IMG/VR virus record: IMGVR_UViG_3300028573_000064
Coordinates: 1 to 21,943 of that record
Origin: a virus
DNA: 21,943 nucleotides
Reading direction: 5' to 3' (one strand)
The position numbers were made by a program, and so were the translations under genes. Under the pieces are notes generated by a model. The model was not told the DNA's origin and searched no databases. It saw nothing but the letters and a program-made list of their open reading frames with translations. This document shows, piece after piece, positions 2 to 10,686 of this stretch. Within the stretch, counting starts at the first letter, position 1. Each line of letters starts with the position of its first letter.

Positions 2-1168
2 GTCTACGCGATCCAGTCTTTGATGCGCCGGGTTTCCTGGTGGTTTGAGGAGAAGGACAGCCGTGGTGCCGTCTGGATGCAGGGTGTGCTGGACGACATG
101 CAGTTCTCCTGGGAGGACACGTTGGGAGAGATCCTCTCGTTCCTGGTTTACGGGTACGGCTACCACGAGATGTGTTTCAAGATCCGGTCGGGCTACAGCA
201 GCTCGCCGTCGCTGTCGTCGATGTTCAACGACGGCCAGATCGGGATTGCGAAGATTCCGTTGCGCGCCCAGGACTCGCTGTGGAAGTGGGTCTTTGACGA
301 TGTGGGCGACATCATGGGGATGATCCAGAATCCGCCTCCGGACTACCTGTTGCGCTTCATCCCACGGGAGAAGGCGTTGCATTTCCGCACCAGCATTTTC
401 AAGGACAACCCGGAAGGGCGGAGCATCCTCCGCAACGCCTACCGCTCCTGGTGGTTCGTGAAGAACATCCAGCAGATCGAGGCGATCGGTGTTGAGCGCG
501 ACCTGGCCGGTCTGCCGGTGCTGACCCCGCCCGAGGGTGTGGACATTTGGGATGCTGCAGACCCGACGATGGCGCAGATGTTTCAGCAGGCGAAGATCAC
601 GGTGTCGTCGGTCCGTCGGGACGAGCAGGAGGGTGTGGTGCTGCCGTTCGGCTGGACGCTGGAGCTGCTCTCGTCGGGCGGCTCGCGCCAGTTCCACACG
701 ACGGAGATCATCTCCCGTTACGAGACGCGGATCGCAACTTCGGTGCTGGCCGACCTGGTGATGATGGGCCAGGACAAGGTTGGCTCGTATGCGCTGTCGG
801 TGACGAAGAAGGATATGTTCTCGGCGTCGCTGGGCGGCTACCTCGACATTATCTCGTCGGTGATCAACACCCAGATGATCCCGACGCTGTGGCAGCTGAA
901 CGGCTTCAAGGATCCGATGCCGAAGCTGTGCCACGGCTCCGTCGAGACAATCGACCTCGATACGTTGGGTAACTACATCAATAGAATTGCGAAGGTTGGC
1001 GCTCCGATCGACTGGTCTACGGCGCTGCCTTGGATGAACGACCAGGCCGGTATCCCGGCTGCATCTCCCGGCTGGGACTTCACCGCGAAGCCGATGACGG
1101 GCGGCGGTGGCTTCGGGGCGGACGACTCTGCGCCGTCTGGTTCTGGCGGCGAGAACGGAAAGTCGTGA
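2..1168 (+). CDS. Portal protein, DUF935 / Mu gp29-like (5' end truncated)
   Basis: Portal ring subunit at the packaging vertex, through which DNA enters and leaves the head. The frame is open to the window edge and reads V-Y-A-I-Q-S-L before the first Met, so the true start is upstream and the TTG at 20 and ATG at 23 are internal. Features seen: an early SFLVYGYGYHEM segment typical of the family, a central PREKALHFRTSIFKDNPEGRS segment followed by aromatic-rich helix RSWWFVKNI, and an ERDLAGLPVLTPP motif. The C-terminus is Gly/Ser rich and disordered. About 388 residues are visible, somewhat short of a usual 400-500 residue portal, as expected for a truncated start. The stop overlaps the next start (GTGA), indicating translational coupling to the protease. 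Family assignment is from recalled motif patterns, not a search. Confidence 0.85.
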   Translation, partial: VYAIQSLMRRVSWWFEEKDSRGAVWMQGVLDDMQFSWEDTLGEILSFLVYGYGYHEMCFKIRSGYSSSPSLSSMFNDGQIGIAKIPLRAQDSLWKWVFDDVGDIMGMIQNPPPDYLLRFIPREKALHFRTSIFKDNPEGRSILRNAYRSWWFVKNIQQIEAIGVERDLAGLPVLTPPEGVDIWDAADPTMAQMFQQAKITVSSVRRDEQEGVVLPFGWTLELLSSGGSRQFHTTEIISRYETRIATSVLADLVMMGQDKVGSYALSVTKKDMFSASLGGYLDIISSVINTQMIPTLWQLNGFKDPMPKLCHGSVETIDLDTLGNYINRIAKVGAPIDWSTALPWMNDQAGIPAASPGWDFTAKPMTGGGGFGADDSAPSGSGGENGKS

Positions 1169-2214
1169 TCCCGCTCGACCGGGTGCGGCCACGGCCGGTC
1201 ATCGACGGCCAACTGATTGAACTGTTCAAAGGTCAGGCGAAGCCCGCCACTTTGAACCTGCGTGTTCACGGGATGCATCACGCGCCGCAGGGACAGCTGA
1301 TCTACCGGATGGAAACCCGTGACGGCCACTATGTCGGCAAGACGAACCCGACGAAGCATCGGGCGAAGAAGGGCGACATCCTCACGATCGCCGCGAACGA
1401 CTTCGCCACCGACGGTTCCGGCGACCTGGCCTGGCTGAACCCGAACGTGGTGTCGCATTACACCGACACCGCCCATTCCTGGAAGGAGCTGCAGGCTTTG
1501 GCTGGTGGCGCTGTCGTGAAAGACACCGCCCCTGGGCCTGCTGGCGACCTTCCTTCCGCCGCTGGTGATTCTGGTGCTGGTGATCTGCTGCCGAGCGAGC
1601 AGACGTTGGAGTCGATGGGTGCTGCCGCGAGCGGCGGCGATCTTCCTGTCGGACCGACGTTGAGTTCAGTCCACGTCAACCGACCTTTAAAGGACATTTC
1701 AGTTGGCTATATGGGCCGCACAAAGAAACTGCGCGTCAGCAAGGCCGACCAGGTTAAGCAGCTCGTATACGGGGTCGTGCTTGAACCGAACACGCTCGAC
1801 TCCCAGGACGACTACATGCTGCCAAATCAAGTGGAAAAAGCTGCGCACAACTATTTGAAGAAGGCTGTCCGTGGCAAGTCGTCGGTGTCGAAGCTGCAGC
1901 ATCGCAAGCCTGGTTTCTTCAAGAACAAGCCGTCGGTGGTGCCGGTCGAGTCGTTCATCGCCCCGGTGGACTTCACCTATGACGGCAAGGAGATGATCAA
2001 GAAGGGCACCTGGGTTTTGGTGTTGCATGTCGAGGACAAGCAAATCTGGAGTGACGTGATGGCGGGCAAATACACCGGCCTATCGATCGGCGGCTCCGGC
2101 ATCCGTCAGTCCTACAACGTTCCTGTCCCTTCCGACTTCATGGGTCATTTGGAGCCGGAGGATTGGGCTGCCTCGATCAACTCGCAATTCAACGTTCCTG
2201 GTTCTGGCGGGTAG
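1165..2214 (+). CDS. XkdF-type prohead protease with extra N-terminal domain and capsid-arm-like segment
   Basis: Predicted capsid maturation protease (349 residues from GTG 1165, which overlaps the portal stop; a longer open frame back to 1030 is antisupported by the portal overlap). Three parts are visible. Residues 1-100 include GKTNPTKHRAKKGDILTI and a following WLNPNV segment, reminiscent of an OB-fold from DNA ligases; this is tentative. Residues 164-183 copy the N-terminus of the major capsid protein. Residues about 190-345 match the XkdF serine protease family: LVYGVVLEPN, the AAHNYLKKA helix, ESFIAPVDF, IKKGTWVLVLHVED and TGLSIGGSG. By analogy with assemblin-fold proteases His246 (LQHRK) and Ser307 (GLSIGG) are candidate catalytic residues. 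A linker rich in Gly, Ala and Pro joins the parts. It sits between portal and scaffold, the usual site for a head protease. Confidence 0.82.
   Translation: MIPLDRVRPRPVIDGQLIELFKGQAKPATLNLRVHGMHHAPQGQLIYRMETRDGHYVGKTNPTKHRAKKGDILTIAANDFATDGSGDLAWLNPNVVSHYTDTAHSWKELQALAGGAVVKDTAPGPAGDLPSAAGDSGAGDLLPSEQTLESMGAAASGGDLPVGPTLSSVHVNRPLKDISVGYMGRTKKLRVSKADQVKQLVYGVVLEPNTLDSQDDYMLPNQVEKAAHNYLKKAVRGKSSVSKLQHRKPGFFKNKPSVVPVESFIAPVDFTYDGKEMIKKGTWVLVLHVEDKQIWSDVMAGKYTGLSIGGSGIRQSYNVPVPSDFMGHLEPEDWAASINSQFNVPGSGG
1654..1713 (+). repeat. Protease copy of the capsid N-terminal arm (residues 164-183)
   Basis: Encodes PTLSSVHVNRPLKDISVGYM. It matches residues 4-23 of the major capsid protein (4082-4141) at 15 of 20 positions without gaps. 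Only 4 of the 15 identical residues use the same codon, so the similarity is held at the protein level and is not a recent DNA duplication. Confidence 0.9.
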
Positions 2215-2219
2215 GGCTT

Positions 2220-2231
2220 AAGAACGTTCTT
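2220..2231. repeat. 12-bp perfect palindrome AAGAACGTTCTT
   Basis: A perfect inverted repeat with no spacer in the 43-base gap between the protease stop and the scaffold start. It could be a binding site or a small RNA element; there is no further evidence for a role. Confidence 0.4.
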
Positions 2232-2257
2232 TCTTCGGCTGTCGATAGATAGCCCGA

Positions 2258-3616
2258 ATGAAGCTACTTACTGACGTTGATGGGGACGAGGTTTCTCTCG
2301 TTGAGCGCGCCGCGAACCGGCGTCGCTTTTTGCTGCTGAAGGGAGAGCGAGGAAAATTGGATACTGAGCTTTCGGACATTCTGGAAATCCCGTGGGAGCG
2401 CGAAGGGTCCCTCCTGGATGCGATCCGCAAAGACGGGGTGAACGACGAGACTGTCGAGAAGGCTGTCGTTGCCGCTGTCCGTTTGCTGAAGGGCGTCGAG
2501 ATTGAGTTTTCCCCGGAGCTGGTCGAGAAGCTCGGCACAGAGCTGTACGGCCGGGTTAACCCGACGTTGAACACGACGAGTGTTTCCGGGCTTGGTCTGC
2601 TCTCCGGTTCAGCGGGCGGTGCGGCGATGGACGGTTCCGGCAGCGGAGCGGACAAGGATGGATCAGGAACTGACGGTGAGCTGATCGGCACAGGCGACGC
2701 TGGCGAGAAGGTCGCCGCCGACCATCCCGAGGGTTGCGACTGTGCTGCATGCATGGACGCGACGAAGGCTGACGGTAACGACAGCGAGGATGACGCCGAC
2801 GCCGACGACGTGCAGAAGCGTGACTTCTCCGCCGACGCACGTCGCTCCGCCGCGAACAGCGGTCAGGCGTTGCCGGACGGCTCGTTCCCGATCAAAAACA
2901 CTTCGGACCTGAAGAACGCGATTCAGGCCGTAGGGCGTGCGAAGGATCCCGGCCGTGCCAAGGCTTGGATCATTCGCAGGGCAAAGGCTCTGAATGCGAC
3001 GGGCAGCCTGCCTGATTCCTGGGCGGTCTCCAAGTCGGACGACGAGCTGGATGTAAACGACGACCAAGAAGGGGGCACAGTGGAGTTCCAGGTGCCGGTA
3101 AAGAAGGAAGACGGGGGCTGGGACTACTCAGGAGTCCCCGAGGAGGCCCGTTCGTTCTTCTCGGAGCAAATCGAGAAGGCCGACAAGATGGAGAAGGAAC
3201 TCGCGGAGGCTCGCGAGCGTCTGCAGAAGGCGGACGACACGATGAAGCATCGCGAGGCTCTCGCGAAGGCCGCGTCGCTGTCGCACGTCGCTCCCGCCGA
3301 TGACCTCGCTCCGATCCTGAAAGAGGCTGGCGAGAAGCTCGACCCGGAGTCTGTTGAGAAGCTGATGGCGCTCCTCGACAACGCCGAGACGCGGATCGCG
3401 AAGGGTGACCTCTTCACGGAGCACGGCAGCCGCGCCATGTCCGATGGCACGGATCGCTCGGACGCCTACTCGCAGCTGGTTGCGAAGGCCGACGAGATGG
3501 TGGAGAAGTCGGACAAGCCACTGTCCAAGGATCAGGCGTTTGATCGTGCACTTCGGGCGAACCCGGAGCTGTACAGCAAGTACCTGGCTGAGACTGGGAT
3601 TGGGAGGACTCCGTAA
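2258..3616 (+). CDS. Scaffold protein with XkdF-associated N-terminus and DUF6582-like domain
   Basis: Predicted internal scaffold, 452 residues. The N-terminus (residues 1-30, DVDGDEVSLVERAANRRRFLLLKG) is a motif I associate with the C-terminal part of XkdF-type proteins, so protease and scaffold appear split here. Residues 189-255 form a GQALPDGSFPI...RAKALNATGSLPDSW domain like DUF6582, common in phage head proteins. Residues about 295-340 are a charged coiled coil, and residues about 400-445 (KADEMVEKSDKPLSKDQAFDRALRANPELYSKYLAE region) form a helical end often seen in head scaffolds. The middle (about 115-185) is acidic and Gly/Ser rich, presumably disordered. ATG 2258 is chosen because it begins the conserved motif; no clear Shine-Dalgarno precedes it. 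The stop overlaps the next ATG (TAATG). Confidence 0.75.
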   Translation: MKLLTDVDGDEVSLVERAANRRRFLLLKGERGKLDTELSDILEIPWEREGSLLDAIRKDGVNDETVEKAVVAAVRLLKGVEIEFSPELVEKLGTELYGRVNPTLNTTSVSGLGLLSGSAGGAAMDGSGSGADKDGSGTDGELIGTGDAGEKVAADHPEGCDCAACMDATKADGNDSEDDADADDVQKRDFSADARRSAANSGQALPDGSFPIKNTSDLKNAIQAVGRAKDPGRAKAWIIRRAKALNATGSLPDSWAVSKSDDELDVNDDQEGGTVEFQVPVKKEDGGWDYSGVPEEARSFFSEQIEKADKMEKELAEARERLQKADDTMKHREALAKAASLSHVAPADDLAPILKEAGEKLDPESVEKLMALLDNAETRIAKGDLFTEHGSRAMSDGTDRSDAYSQLVAKADEMVEKSDKPLSKDQAFDRALRANPELYSKYLAETGIGRTP

Positions 3617-4053
3617 TGGCTGGTCCTGCTTACGGAACCAACACCGGCCAGGACTTCACTCTCCTGGCTAACACCGATCAGACGGGCAACCAGTTCAAGT
3701 TCGTCCAGCTGGCCTCCACGGGCTACCTGGTAACGGTCTCGACTGCGGGGCAGCGGGCGATCGGTGTCATGCAGGACGCTCCGGTCGGCAGCTCGTCTGC
3801 CCCGGTTGCTTCCCAGGTTCGGATGCTCGGCCCGACGAAGATCCAGGCTGGCGGCACGTTCAACGCCGGTGACCTGGTGACCTCCGACGCTTCGGGCAAG
3901 GCAGTGAAGTACACGGGCGCGACGGTCTTCACGGGCACGCCGTACACCGTTTCAGGGAGCCAGGTGCTTGGGGTAGCTCTTCAGGCAGGCGCTGCTGGTT
4001 CTGACACCGCAATCCTGTTCAACCCGTCCGGGTTGGCCGCAACAGGCGACTAA
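3616..4053 (+). CDS. Small capsid decoration-type protein (DUF2190-like)
   Basis: A 145-residue beta-rich, cysteine-free protein placed directly before the major capsid gene, where decoration or head-stabilising proteins usually sit. The pattern of short strands, AIGVMQDAPVGSSSAP and VRMLGPTKIQAGGTFNAGDLVTSDASGKAV, resembles DUF2190-type capsid cement proteins (a barrel with a 'G.a..G..v..d..Gk' loop). ATG 3616 overlaps the scaffold stop; GGGAGG lies 8 bases upstream. It would bind the outer capsid surface. The assignment rests on position and general pattern, so another small structural role is possible. Confidence 0.65.
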   Translation: MAGPAYGTNTGQDFTLLANTDQTGNQFKFVQLASTGYLVTVSTAGQRAIGVMQDAPVGSSSAPVASQVRMLGPTKIQAGGTFNAGDLVTSDASGKAVKYTGATVFTGTPYTVSGSQVLGVALQAGAAGSDTAILFNPSGLAATGD

Positions 4054-4072
4054 GGGAAAGGAGCTGAGATAA

Positions 4073-5065
4073 ATGGCAGAACCTACCCTTAGTGCTGTAC
4101 ACGTAAACCGCCCGCTGACCAACATCAGCCAGGCGTACATGCAGGACTCGACCGACTACATCGCGGACAAGATTTTCCCGGTGGTGCCGGTTCAGAAGCA
4201 GTCCGATCGTTACTTCATCTACACGAAGGGCGACTGGTTCCGCGACGAGGCAACGGAGCGTGCTCCGGGCACCGAGTCGGCTGGCGGTGGCTATTCGCTG
4301 GACAACACCCCGACGTATTACGCGCCGGTGTATGCGTTCAGCGTTGACGTTGACCCCCAGATCAGGGCCAACTCGGATGACCCGCTGAATGCGGACAGGG
4401 ACGCAACCCTGTTCATCACGCAGCGGATCATGCTGAAGCGGGAGATCCTTGTTCAGAACACCGTCATGGCTACCTCGACGTGGACGGGTTCCTCGACGGG
4501 TGGCGACATTACGCCGTCGCCCCAGTGGAACCTCGCGAACTCCACGCCGCTGGAAGACATTGAGGCCCAGATTTGGGCGATCAAGCAGACCACGGCGAAG
4601 TTCCCGAACAAGTTCATTCTCGGCCCGCGTGTGTGGGAAGTTCTCAAGAACCACGACGAGATCGTTCAGCGCATCAAGTACACCCAGCGCGGTGTGGTTA
4701 CGACCGACCTGCTGGCTTCGCTGATCGCCCCGCCTGGAGTGGACAATTTCCAGGTGATGGTCGGCGCTGCCATTCAGAACACGGCGAACCAGGGTGCGGC
4801 TGACAACTTCCAGTTCATCACTCCGACGAAGGACTGTCTGCTGCTCTATGCGGAGCCGCAGCCGGGAATCATGGTTCCGTCGGCTGGCTACATCTTCACC
4901 TGGGTTGGTTTGCTCGGCTCCGGGTCGTTCGGCTCAAGGATCTCGCAGATCCCGATGCCGTGGCTTGGGATCGGCACCGTCCGGACTGAGGCTGAGCTTG
5001 CCTTCGCCGTGAAGATCGTCGGCGCTGACCTGGGCGCGTATTTCCATAACGCGGTGTCTGCGTAA
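4073..5065 (+). CDS. Major capsid protein, HK97 fold
   Basis: 330 residues, the main shell subunit. The N-terminal arm (residues 4-23, TLSAVHVNRPLTNISQAYM) is characteristic of a family of phage capsid proteins; it is followed by the ADKIFPVVPV strand, a long E-loop region (DRYFIYTKGDWFRDEATERAPGTES), the spine helix region (TLFITQRIMLKREILVQNTVMA) and P-domain features (PNKFILGPRVWEVLKNHDEI, then a C-terminal RTEAELAFAVKIVGADLGAYFHNAV strand-helix). Length fits the family. AAAGGAG lies 9 bases before ATG 4073. It is preceded by scaffold and decoration genes and followed by a strong hairpin, as expected for the most expressed gene of the operon. The only doubt is the exact subfamily. Confidence 0.92.
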   Translation: MAEPTLSAVHVNRPLTNISQAYMQDSTDYIADKIFPVVPVQKQSDRYFIYTKGDWFRDEATERAPGTESAGGGYSLDNTPTYYAPVYAFSVDVDPQIRANSDDPLNADRDATLFITQRIMLKREILVQNTVMATSTWTGSSTGGDITPSPQWNLANSTPLEDIEAQIWAIKQTTAKFPNKFILGPRVWEVLKNHDEIVQRIKYTQRGVVTTDLLASLIAPPGVDNFQVMVGAAIQNTANQGAADNFQFITPTKDCLLLYAEPQPGIMVPSAGYIFTWVGLLGSGSFGSRISQIPMPWLGIGTVRTEAELAFAVKIVGADLGAYFHNAVSA

Positions 5066-5128: not shown

Positions 5129-5494
5129 ATGCTTTCGCAATCACAGCGGGAAAGGAACTTGGACAGGTTGGAGATTCAGTATTCGTTCATTGCCATTTGG
5201 CCGCTCGATGTTGAGCATCCGATTGGCTCCGGTCAGGTTGTGCATTACGAACCCGGCGATATCGTCCCTGCTGGTGAATGGGGAGCAGCTGCACATAATT
5301 TGATGGAGATGGGCAGGATCGAGCGGCTGGCGGTTAATGTCGCTTCCCTGCAGGAGGTTCAACAGGCAGCAGAGGTTGATGAAGTAGTTGAGTACCCAGT
5401 TCATGTTGGTGCTGGTTGGTATCTGCTTTCCAACGGGGAGCGGATCCGCACGAAGGCTTTGGCAGAGCAGGCCCAAAAAGAACTAGGAGAATGA
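5129..5494 (+). CDS. Hypothetical head-region protein with GWYxLxxGERIR C-terminus
   Basis: 121 residues, not assigned to a family. It starts at ATG 5129 with an excellent AGGAGG 9 bases upstream. The N-terminal half (IWPLDVEHPIGSGQVVHYEPGDIVPAGEWG) is beta-rich; the segment around residues 54-65 is helical; and the C-terminus ends YPVHVGAGWYLLSNGERIRTKALAEQAQKEL, a 'GGGWYeL.dG.rv.GK' pattern seen at the ends of small phage structural proteins. It has no signal peptide, membrane segment or cysteine. Position directly after the capsid gene suggests a head completion or head-surface role; this is inference. Confidence 0.6.
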   Translation: MLSQSQRERNLDRLEIQYSFIAIWPLDVEHPIGSGQVVHYEPGDIVPAGEWGAAAHNLMEMGRIERLAVNVASLQEVQQAAEVDEVVEYPVHVGAGWYLLSNGERIRTKALAEQAQKELGE

Positions 5495-5495
5495 A

Positions 5496-5777
5496 ATGAG
5501 CGGTTTCGCTGAGGAATACCCGAATCAGTTCCTGGGCCTCGACACAGCTCAGAACACGAACTCGGGTGCTGTGAATGTTTTCGGATCACCGGTTCAGCTT
5601 GCAACGAACCAGGGTGCTGTCGGCATCGTTGTGAACTCCGGGGCTGGTGTGCCTGCCATCGGCGGCAACGTCGGTGACGCCTACTTCCGCACCGACTTTT
5701 CGGGTGCGAACACCTGGCTGTATCAGTGCACCGTCGCTGGCGCTGCTGGGGCCGCGACCTGGGTGGGCAAGGTTTAA
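5496..5777 (+). CDS. Small structural protein with phage-fibre-like end
   Basis: 93 residues. Good AGGAGA precedes ATG 5496, one base after the previous stop. The second half (GGNVGDAYFRTDFSGANTWLYQCTVAGAAGAATWVGKV) matches a short beta module common at the ends of phage fibre and virion surface proteins ('G..GD.Y.rtD......Y.CTvAG.aG.AtWvg'). The N-terminal half is Asn/Gly/Val rich without clear family. With the next two genes it forms a surface-protein group. Function beyond virion component is not known. Confidence 0.6.
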   Translation: MSGFAEEYPNQFLGLDTAQNTNSGAVNVFGSPVQLATNQGAVGIVVNSGAGVPAIGGNVGDAYFRTDFSGANTWLYQCTVAGAAGAATWVGKV

Positions 5778-5778
5778 G

Positions 5779-6081
5779 TTGGCGACTACTGCCGGGCAGG
5801 TTGCTGTCACTTCGGCTGCGGGGGGCACGCTGATCGTGGCTGCCCCCAACGCCAACTACGGGCAGGAGCAGGGAGGCTATCTGCTGTCGAACCGTGACGT
5901 TGCTCTGTCGAACAGCTCCGGAGCGATCGTGTATTTGGGGCCGCAGGGTGTGACGACTTCGACCGGCTATCCGTTGGCGACCTCGACGACGTTGAAGATT
6001 CAGCTGCACATCGACGAGGCGATCTACGGGATCGTTGCTTCGACCGGCTCGACAGTTTCCTTTCTCGCTTCCGGGAGTTAA
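5779..6081 (+). CDS. Small beta-rich virion surface protein
   Basis: 100 residues from TTG 5779, one base after the upstream stop; an open frame back to 5647 overlaps the previous gene and is not needed. It reads as an all-beta domain: GQVAVTSAAGGTLIVAAPN, VALSNSSGAIVYLGPQGVTTSTGYPL, then LHIDEAIYGIVASTGSTVSFLASGS. The 'vYLG..gVT...Gy.l......' followed by 'iYgi.a..gstV..l.sg' pattern is one I recognise from small phage virion proteins that accompany fibres or decorate capsids. Initiation at TTG without a strong Shine-Dalgarno suggests coupling to the gene before it. Confidence 0.6.
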   Translation: MATTAGQVAVTSAAGGTLIVAAPNANYGQEQGGYLLSNRDVALSNSSGAIVYLGPQGVTTSTGYPLATSTTLKIQLHIDEAIYGIVASTGSTVSFLASGS

Positions 6082-6084
6082 TCC

Positions 6085-8598
<2,514 letters not shown>

Positions 8599-8613: not shown

Positions 8614-8943
8614 ATGGCCGTTTACACACCAAAGACTCTCGTGGCCATCACGCAGCTCACCAACGCTGCCGCTGATGTGTACACGCAACCTGGCGCTACC
8701 ACGACGATCGTGCGAACGATCTGGGCGCAGGCTAACTCGTCGGGGAAGACGGTGACTGTCAGCTTCGGTGCTGACGCCGCCGCCACCCGGATCATTGACG
8801 CATTCGCTTTGACGGCGAACGTGCCTCAGCTGTGGAACGGCTGGTGGGTGATCGCGTCGGGTTCTACGTCCCACACGATCCAGGCGTTCGCTTCCGCGAA
8901 CACGGCTGTGAACATCATCATCGGTGGGTACGAGTACGCATGA
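8614..8943 (+). CDS. Small beta-sandwich-like virion protein
   Basis: 109 residues, ATG 8614 with AAAGGA 7-11 bases upstream, between the large fibre and the glycosyltransferase. Its pattern, ITQLTNAAADVYTQPGATTTIVRTIWAQANSSGKTVTVSF followed by [21 protein letters not shown], is that of a small virion protein with a long beta-sheet ('lt....lYt.P.g.tt.v..i...N.s...v.v') often present in phage surface-protein groups. No catalytic motif, signal or membrane segment. It may be a fibre-associated or capsid-decorating protein; the exact place in the particle is unknown. Its stop overlaps the next ATG. Confidence 0.6.
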   Translation: MAVYTPKTLVAITQLTNAAADVYTQPGATTTIVRTIWAQANSSGKTVTVSFGADAAATRIIDAFALTANVPQLWNGWWVIASGSTSHTIQAFASANTAVNIIIGGYEYA

Positions 8944-10064
8944 GACTTCACTTGGTTGGTCTGCCTCACACGCAGACCACGCGGGAAACAACGGTGTGTG
9001 CGTTCACAGCCAAGATCGTGAAGTTCTGCGAGATGATGGAAGACCATTACGAAATCTTCGTCTACTCGGGAGACCACAACGACGCGCCCTGCATCGAACA
9101 CATCAGCCTGGTCTCTGACCAGGAGCAGAAGCAGTGGTATGGCGAGTCTGATCCGAACAAGCTGCCGGGGGTGGCGACATGGAGTGAGACGGATCTTCCC
9201 TGGCTGATCTTCAACGGCAGGGCGATCCAGGAGATCACGAAACGGAAGATGCCTGGCGATCTGGTTCTGATCACCGGGGGCAACGCGCAACGGCTAGTGC
9301 CGCAGGCTCTGTCGGATGTGATCTGCTGTGAGTGGGCGGCAGGTTACGAGGGGATCTTCACCCCGTATGTCTGCTTCGAGTCCTACGCGTGGATGCATTA
9401 CCTGTACGGGCAGATGAAATGCGACGGCCGCCATTTCGACGCGGTGATCCCGAACTTCTTCCGTCCCGAAGATTTCTTCATGGCCGAGAAGCGGGCCGAC
9501 TATCTGCTCTACGTGGGCCGGATGATCGAACGAAAGGGTGTCAGGACGGCAGTGGAGATCGCGAACGCGACCGGACGCAAGCTGTACCTGGCCGGGTCAG
9601 GGGTGGCGTCGTCCGAGTCGGGAAAGGTGGTCTGTGACGACGGCATGGTGTTGGAGGGCGACCTTGAATACCTCGGCACCGTGGGTGCTGAGGCTCGCAA
9701 CATCCTGATGAGCCAGGCCCATGCTGTGCTGGTGCCGACCGCCTACATCGAGCCGTTCGGGGCTGTCGCTGTCGAGGCGCAGCTGTGTGGCACCCCGGCC
9801 GTGACGACCGACTTCGGTGCGTTCACGGAAACGGTTGCCCCACGGTTCCGCTTCCGCACGCTGGATCAGGCTGTGAAAGCTGTGGAGAACTGTTGCAGCT
9901 CCGTGAACTCATATGAGCTTCAGCAGGCGGCGTTGTCTAAGTTCTCTTTGGATGCCGTGGCTCCGAAGTACGTTGATTGGTTCACCCGTCTTGAATCTCT
10001 GTGGGATTATGGTTGGTACACGAACACTTCCTACGTAGAGGAGAGCAATGGGTCGCGGTCCTGA
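8940..10064 (+). CDS. GT-B glycosyltransferase, GT4-like
   Basis: 374 residues from ATG 8940 (ATGA overlap with the previous stop; a longer open frame from 8832 is out of step with the neighbour). The C-terminal Rossmann domain is clear: [15 protein letters not shown] from about residue 188, a KLYLAGSG strand-turn, [25 protein letters not shown], and the EX7E motif EPFGAVAVE (Glu271, Glu279), which binds the sugar nucleotide in retaining GT-B enzymes such as GT4. The N-terminal domain (1-180) is more divergent and would bind the acceptor. No membrane anchor is seen, so a soluble enzyme acting in the cytoplasm. It overlaps the next fibre gene by 17 bases and follows the Thr-rich fibre, which makes a virion fibre the most attractive acceptor; this is inference. 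Alternative: modification of host surface sugars. Confidence 0.88.
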
Positions 10065-10686
10065 GCAGAAGCTGTACCCGCACAACACCGGCGGTGAGCC
10101 TGAGCCGAACGGTGATGGGGTAACCCATCTGCACTTCCACGATCTGCCGTCCGACGGTGAGCCCGGCCAGATCCTGGCGATGGGTCCGCAAGGGAAGCTG
10201 ATCTGGGTTTGGATGCCGCAGCCCGATCACAATGTGACGGACGCCAGCGGCCTGATCGACAAACGAACGATCCCGCCTTTGGACGAGTCGCACCTGCCCG
10301 ACCTGTCCGGCACCTACCAGACTCTTGCTGAGAGAGACGCCCCCAGCGGCTACGTGGGGTTGGACGAGAACGGCAAGATCAGCCCGTATGTGATCCCGGT
10401 GCTGGCCCGCGGTCTGACCGGCCCGCAAGGGCCGCAGGGCCCTCAGGGGCCTCCCGGCCAGCAGGGGAACCCTGGACGTCAGGGCGAGGCTGGCCCGCAG
10501 GGGCCGAGGGGGTTGCAGGGCGAGCAGGGGACGCAGGGCCCTCCGGGCGCCCGTGGCTCCGCCCCCGACATGAGCTTGTATCTGAAGCTGCCGTCGAAGG
10601 TGCCGACTCTGGCTTTGCAGAGCGATACTCTCGCTAGAGACCTTGCCTACTATCTGGCTGAGCTTGGAGCGGTGAACCTGATATGA
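10048..10686 (+). CDS. Second collagen-like minor fibre protein
   Basis: 212 residues; ATG 10048 lies inside the end of the glycosyltransferase gene and is preceded by GAGGAG. The N-terminal region contains [22 protein letters not shown], a pattern like fibre anchoring or surface regions, followed by [23 protein letters not shown]. Residues about 121-170 form 16 Gly-X-Y triplets, GPQ and charged types such as [12 protein letters not shown], in contrast to the Thr-rich shaft upstream. A short C-terminal helical end ([27 protein letters not shown]) is a likely trimerisation tip. The stop overlaps the next ATG. Its place between the glycosyltransferase and connector genes suggests it is part of the same surface module. 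Confidence 0.78.

Follow-up and report, generated by a model that had tools for sequence, protein, structure and literature searches.

For most phages, little is known about the way maturation proteases enter proheads. Published reports describe short, often terminal peptides that bring internal proteins into the prohead, namely the capsid targeting sequence of T4, that of P1 DarB and the propeptides of SPN3US (PMC7411985, PMC9024508, PMC3012670), and mutants of SPN3US suggested that the C-terminal propeptide of its protease targets the protease into the prohead (PMC7411985). Encapsulin targeting peptides are likewise short and flexible and bind the inside of an HK97-fold shell as cargo loaders (PMC6668986), and in phage 80alpha the C-terminal helix-and-hook of the scaffold (RIIK motif) is a short end piece by which this internal protein is anchored to the shell, close to the N-terminal arm (N-arm) of the capsid protein (PMC5644958). 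Here we analyzed a virus record of 21,943 bases (IMG/VR record IMGVR_UViG_3300028573_000064; the whole stretch is called the window below), in which the head maturation protease carries a copy of the N-arm of the phage's own major capsid protein (MCP). The feature is real, recurrent and apparently undescribed; it is well supported as mimicry under selection, and judging from the sequences docking is its most likely function. The initial annotation of this DNA knew of no description of such mimicry, and our search of the open-access literature likewise found no earlier report of head proteases mimicking MCP arms.

The protease of the window has 349 residues and a GTG start (1165-2214, + strand, as are all window features given below). 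It matches the PHROG for head maturation proteases and, over residues 190-312 (1732-2100), the Peptidase_S78_2 (XkdF) serine protease domain (Pfam PF14550, E=1.1e-25; 90.5 bits against a cut-off of 24), and is laid out as an N-terminal beta-rich domain, a linker and this domain. Residues 164-183 (PTLSSVHVNRPLKDISVGYM, nt 1654-1713) are identical to residues 4-23 of the MCP (PTLSAVHVNRPLTNISQAYM, nt 4082-4141) at 15 of 20 positions, exactly as first reported. The ungapped BLOSUM score of the two peptides is 77. When the MCP N-terminus was shuffled 1,000 times, the highest score was 44, and the best of 6,551 shuffled comparisons over all loci scored 40. The motif conserved in relatives begins one residue earlier, at G163, and the copy accordingly spans residues 163-183 (GPTLSSVHVNRPLKDISVGYM, 1651-1713). 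It sits in the linker directly before the protease domain, where the initial annotation had placed it. In the AlphaFold model of the protease, which has low confidence overall (pLDDT 56.5), the motif is predicted to be disordered (pLDDT<50), as expected of a flexible linker.

Identical codons are used at 4 of the 15 common residues, a count that our recount reproduced, while independent codon choice predicts 6.8; the likeness is therefore one of protein and not of DNA. In nine genomes, copy and MCP arm showed 54-69% nucleotide identity and same-codon counts near the independent expectation. Since codon choice is independent, the likeness does not stem from recent copying, and duplicated DNA or recent gene conversion was rejected on the basis of this comparison.

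All proteases about 50-83% identical to that of the window (IMG/VR loci L003-L008, L025-L034, L039 and L043/L044) keep the peptide, for example as GPGLASVHVNVPLPDISVSYV, GPTLSAVHVPGPLPNLSVAYM, GPTLNAVHVNIPLGDISQAYV or GPTANSVHVNRPLKNISLFYG, while the linkers around it vary in length and sequence. Between the window and L003, 20 of 21 motif residues are the same with 7 synonymous changes, and the 30 residues upstream of the motif align at only 11 of 35 positions. Similarly, L025 and L026 share 19 of 21 motif residues with 10 synonymous changes. Because the motif stays near-identical through synonymous changes while the preceding linker has diverged, purifying selection is, on this comparison of coding sequences, acting on the short peptide, as had been proposed at the outset. 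The MCP and protease genes lie near each other, and fragments could be copied between them, leaving a functionless remnant, either of recombination or of a duplicated end of the MCP gene. This origin is, however, largely refuted and extremely improbable, given the nucleotide identities and near-independent codons in the nine genomes, a peptide that outlasts its diverged flanks, and its recurrence at different positions, as described below.

We surveyed 252 loci with related MCPs, taken from viral contigs and genome contigs, with 31,716 non-redundant open reading frames (ORFs), or 31,513 after setting the MCPs aside. A matrix of 12 columns built from MCP N-termini alone scored 43 of the 31,513 non-MCP ORFs above 15 bits. 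Of these, 42 were identified as XkdF proteases with a separate profile, and the remaining one is a scaffold homologue (L211). After shuffling, three of 31,513 ORFs exceeded 15 bits, the highest with 22.6. A matrix derived from the copies themselves retrieved 57 ORFs at 22.5-37.3 bits, compared with a shuffled maximum of 17.4, a separation that is not independent evidence because this matrix was partly trained on the same sequences. The window copy scored 36.6 bits with the MCP-derived and 35.6 bits with the copy-derived matrix. When each ORF was compared with the arm of the MCP encoded in the same locus, the same proteins came out on top, and L234 and L197/L198 were brought out. The copies of L129, L130, L180-L183, L185, L197, L198, L200 and L209 fell below the first cut-off and were obtained by reading tails and by comparison with the own MCP, followed by the copy-derived matrix.

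The 57 carriers are 54 XkdF proteases, the scaffold homologue of L211, a topoisomerase IB (TopIB)-domain protein of L234 and a ParB-like protein of L209. The initial annotation rested on a single phage. Many lineages have the feature, in proteins of more than one kind, mostly the protease, and one carrier per genome was seen. The carriers are almost exclusively proteins expected inside the procapsid. Across lineages the peptide resembling the own MCP has the core P-x-x-x-x-V-H-V-D/N-x-P-L, and the first 12-13 motif positions alone (GPxxxxVHVNxPL) are common to all. No N-arm copy beyond shuffle level was found in 12 cultivated XkdF phages, PBSX-like ones included, and in a further set (ten loci, nine cultivated phages) the motif stood in the MCP alone, if anywhere. 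Since the cultivated phages examined show no copy outside the MCP, the copy as a general property of all XkdF phages was rejected; its absence from them may be the reason why the feature has gone undescribed.

The position of the copy differs widely between lineages. In the clade of the window it lies 18-36 residues before the protease domain. In a large clade whose MCPs have the N-terminus MPQPNINSVHVDAILTNIS the protease carries it as a C-terminal tail (DPTVSDVHIDTIMSPSKKKPKK, GPGVNDVHVDTIMNPKKKKPK, GPTSESVHEDTLMPPKRQKKKKD). In L056, L057, L128, L135, L155, L169, L186/L187 and L197/L198 it stands either close to the N-terminus or hundreds of residues ahead of the domain. Over all lineages its distance from the domain is 18 to about 900 residues, on either side. 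The MCPs of L102 and L186 are 78% identical, and their proteases bear the copy at opposite ends (C-terminal tail and N-terminus, respectively). On a tree of 97 MCPs, calculated with the N-arm excluded and with a presence table that misses some weak copies, presence and position together need 16 changes, counting gains and losses. Presence alone needs 15, of which 10 are forced by well supported branches. Most clades other than that of the window (L101, L092, L102, L134, L180 and others) have a lysine run (KKKPKK, KRQKKKK) no more than about 10 residues after the copy.

Three genomes have carriers other than the protease. In L211 the copy is located in a homologue of the window's probable scaffold protein (L211 ORF 6697-7551), both belonging to PHROG 13547/17741. 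In L234 a protein of 1,051 residues with a topoisomerase IB core (1159-4311) has an N-terminus that is a near copy of that of its own MCP (MPNITPSDVHVDQEV vs MPNILPGDVHVNREL), and the separate protease is without a copy. In L209 (5351-6397) the ParB-like protein with the copy (5351-5998) overlaps the protease frame (5953-6397); the two are fused in relatives, which suggests a frameshift, programmed or not. XkdF proteases of these phages are also often fused to NUDIX, histidine phosphatase, RNA-ligase-like, methyltransferase and ParB-like domains and to a DNA ligase with a metallo-beta-lactamase fold (enzyme-fused carrier ORFs in L008, L025, L057, L129, L144 and L169), and such enzymes may be taken along into the head.

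The range of positions and the non-protease carriers of these three genomes also bear on the roles first proposed for the peptide. Docking fits best, whereas a function as autoinhibitor, pseudosubstrate or internal substrate was rejected as a general role. The idea that the protease has a second, internal start at the motif was rejected as well, since C-terminal and distal copies do not fit it.

The copy follows the MCP of its own genome. Over 25 loci it shares 7.3 of 12 positions with the own MCP and 5.9 with permuted MCPs, a value not reached in any of 20,000 permutations (p about 5e-5), and nine distant representatives chosen by hand gave 7.8 and 5.9, respectively, again with no permutation reaching the observed value. 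Rare MCP variants are reproduced in the copy, as in L169 (VHVDKLL in both), L056 (VHVDGP/VHIDGP, within DVHxDGP) and L234 (MPNIxPxDVHVxxE in both). The second half of the motif (NISxAYM) covaries weakly; its copy is confined to the clade of the window and mostly reads SVxY where the MCP has SQAY. The initial annotation had made its proposal depend on relatives, and those with this protease were found both to keep the motif and to vary it together with the MCP arm.

Docking is the simplest mechanism because the copy is kept, mobile, located in flexible parts, present on procapsid-internal proteins and tracking the shell protein. The peptide is thus probably a docking tag that mimics the shell subunit's own N-arm. 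During procapsid formation the tag would substitute for an MCP N-arm at the inner surface of the shell, in the groove of a neighbouring capsid subunit, and some protease would thereby be built into each head. Its amount would be sub-stoichiometric because the tag competes with hundreds of real N-arms. The protease would then digest the scaffold and itself, and the tag would leave or be cut. A few lineages would have the tag on a different internal protein instead (scaffold, topoisomerase-like or ParB-like). Tentatively, this may even be a general packaging code that evolved repeatedly in tailed phages, in which internal head proteins acquire a copy of the N-arm of their own capsid and compete for N-arm sites, fixing the copies per head, and in which the tag moves between proteins and positions and follows capsid evolution.

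Several points weigh against docking. Co-inheritance within lineages can yield part of the covariation signal, and both covariation and conservation would also be expected of a shared cleavage site. The scaffold peptide of 80alpha has its binding site next to the N-arm and is no copy of it (PMC5644958). Moreover, 74 of the 127 loci with a readable protease (corrected tally), including all cultivated phages checked, are without a recognisable copy; as this is more than half, other routes of protease loading must exist.

According to the second of these points, the peptide could be a maturation site at which the protease cuts the MCP N-arm, its own chain and a few further internal proteins, just as gp21 of T4 cuts its targets and removes capsid targeting sequences. 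Such sites would likewise covary with the own MCP, and in the clade of the window the copy stands between the N-terminal domains and the protease domain. Cleavage of N-terminal MCP propeptides is reported for the prohead proteases that have been studied, and the MCP, protease and internal proteins of SPN3US share one cleavage motif like that of T4 gp21 (PMC7411985). However, the scaffold, as the main substrate, is without the motif in all loci except L211, and clades with minimal, copy-less proteases still retain the MCP arm. Cleavage motifs of the T4 type are about three residues long, whereas the copy has 12-20 residues and is single.

The structure of the MCP also argues against cleavage. 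In this protein (330 residues, 4073-5065; PHROG 1005 major head protein, E=4e-76), residues 4-23 (4082-4141) form the mimicked arm, and most of the more than 100 related MCPs keep it at their N-termini. AlphaFold predicted an HK97 fold for the protein (pLDDT 89.7), nearest to 3bjq (Z 23.6), followed by shells of a haloarchaeal tailed virus, encapsulin and phages, with HK97 (1ohg) at Z 17.5. Residue 1 of the model aligns at residue 106 of HK97, directly after the maturation cut (1ohg 106-383), with the N-arm modelled at low confidence (49 and 68 in the first two ten-residue blocks). Because this start corresponds to the mature, already cut N-arm of HK97, there would be little to remove from the MCP. 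With residue 1 at the mature N-arm and a separate scaffold-like gene upstream, the MCP falls outside the delta-domain subtype of HK97, T5 and D3. We therefore regard a shared cleavage site, although it is the main rival of docking, as unlikely on its own, and both explanations would be true if the tag docked first and were then cut.

Alternatively, the copy may bind the scaffold, which would also contact the MCP N-arm, and the protease would then ride in with the scaffold core and not on the shell. A scaffold end contacts the coat N-arm in 80alpha, P22 and phi29 (PMC5644958, PMC12749128), and basic residues (KKKPKK) often follow the copy. However, the scaffold homologue of L211 itself has a copy, which fits a shell anchor and hardly a scaffold ligand, and we consider scaffold binding decidedly improbable.

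The genes around the protease form a head gene cluster in the order partial portal, protease, probable scaffold, cement-like protein and MCP, followed by tail genes. The portal gene (2-1168; Portal_Mu, E=9e-24) is cut at its 5' end by the window edge. The probable scaffold gene (2258-3616), third in order, was assigned by its PHROGs in common with L211 and its location between protease and MCP, and the decoration or cement-like head protein (3616-4053) by PHROG 673 and a Phage_cement_2 match just under the cut-off. Among the structural genes further downstream, two encode proteins with long collagen-like repeats (GPTGATG, GPQGPQG; 6085-8598 and 10048-10686), and an ORF at 8832-10064 reads like a glycosyltransferase.

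Taken together, our results describe a clear case of repeated protein mimicry within a genome, kept in step with its model. If docking is true, sequence data would suffice to recognise the signal by which the protease is recruited, the capsid protein of each phage would predict this signal, and other proteins could naturally be loaded into these heads by means of the same tag. The N-arm copy resembles the capsid targeting sequence of T4 in that several kinds of internal protein have it (protease, scaffold, TopIB-like and ParB-like). The T4 sequence is directed to the core and is removed by cleavage, and the accessible parts of the reports do not present it as a copy of the MCP's N-arm. Furthermore, targeting sequences of the T4 type are N-terminal, whereas the N-arm copy occurs in a linker, a C-terminal tail or at the N-terminus. 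The C-terminal propeptide of the SPN3US protease, with its suspected targeting role, finds a counterpart in the clade described here whose C-terminal protease tail holds an N-arm copy. The XkdF/Peptidase_S78_2 family includes the carrier protein, while its cultivated members examined are without the copy. The encapsulin targeting peptide is not known to copy the N-terminus of the shell protein, and the helix-and-hook of 80alpha contacts the N-arm without mimicking it and belongs to the scaffold, not the protease. Unlike the peptides of T4, encapsulins and 80alpha, the N-arm copy reproduces the shell protein's own arm and follows this arm through evolution.
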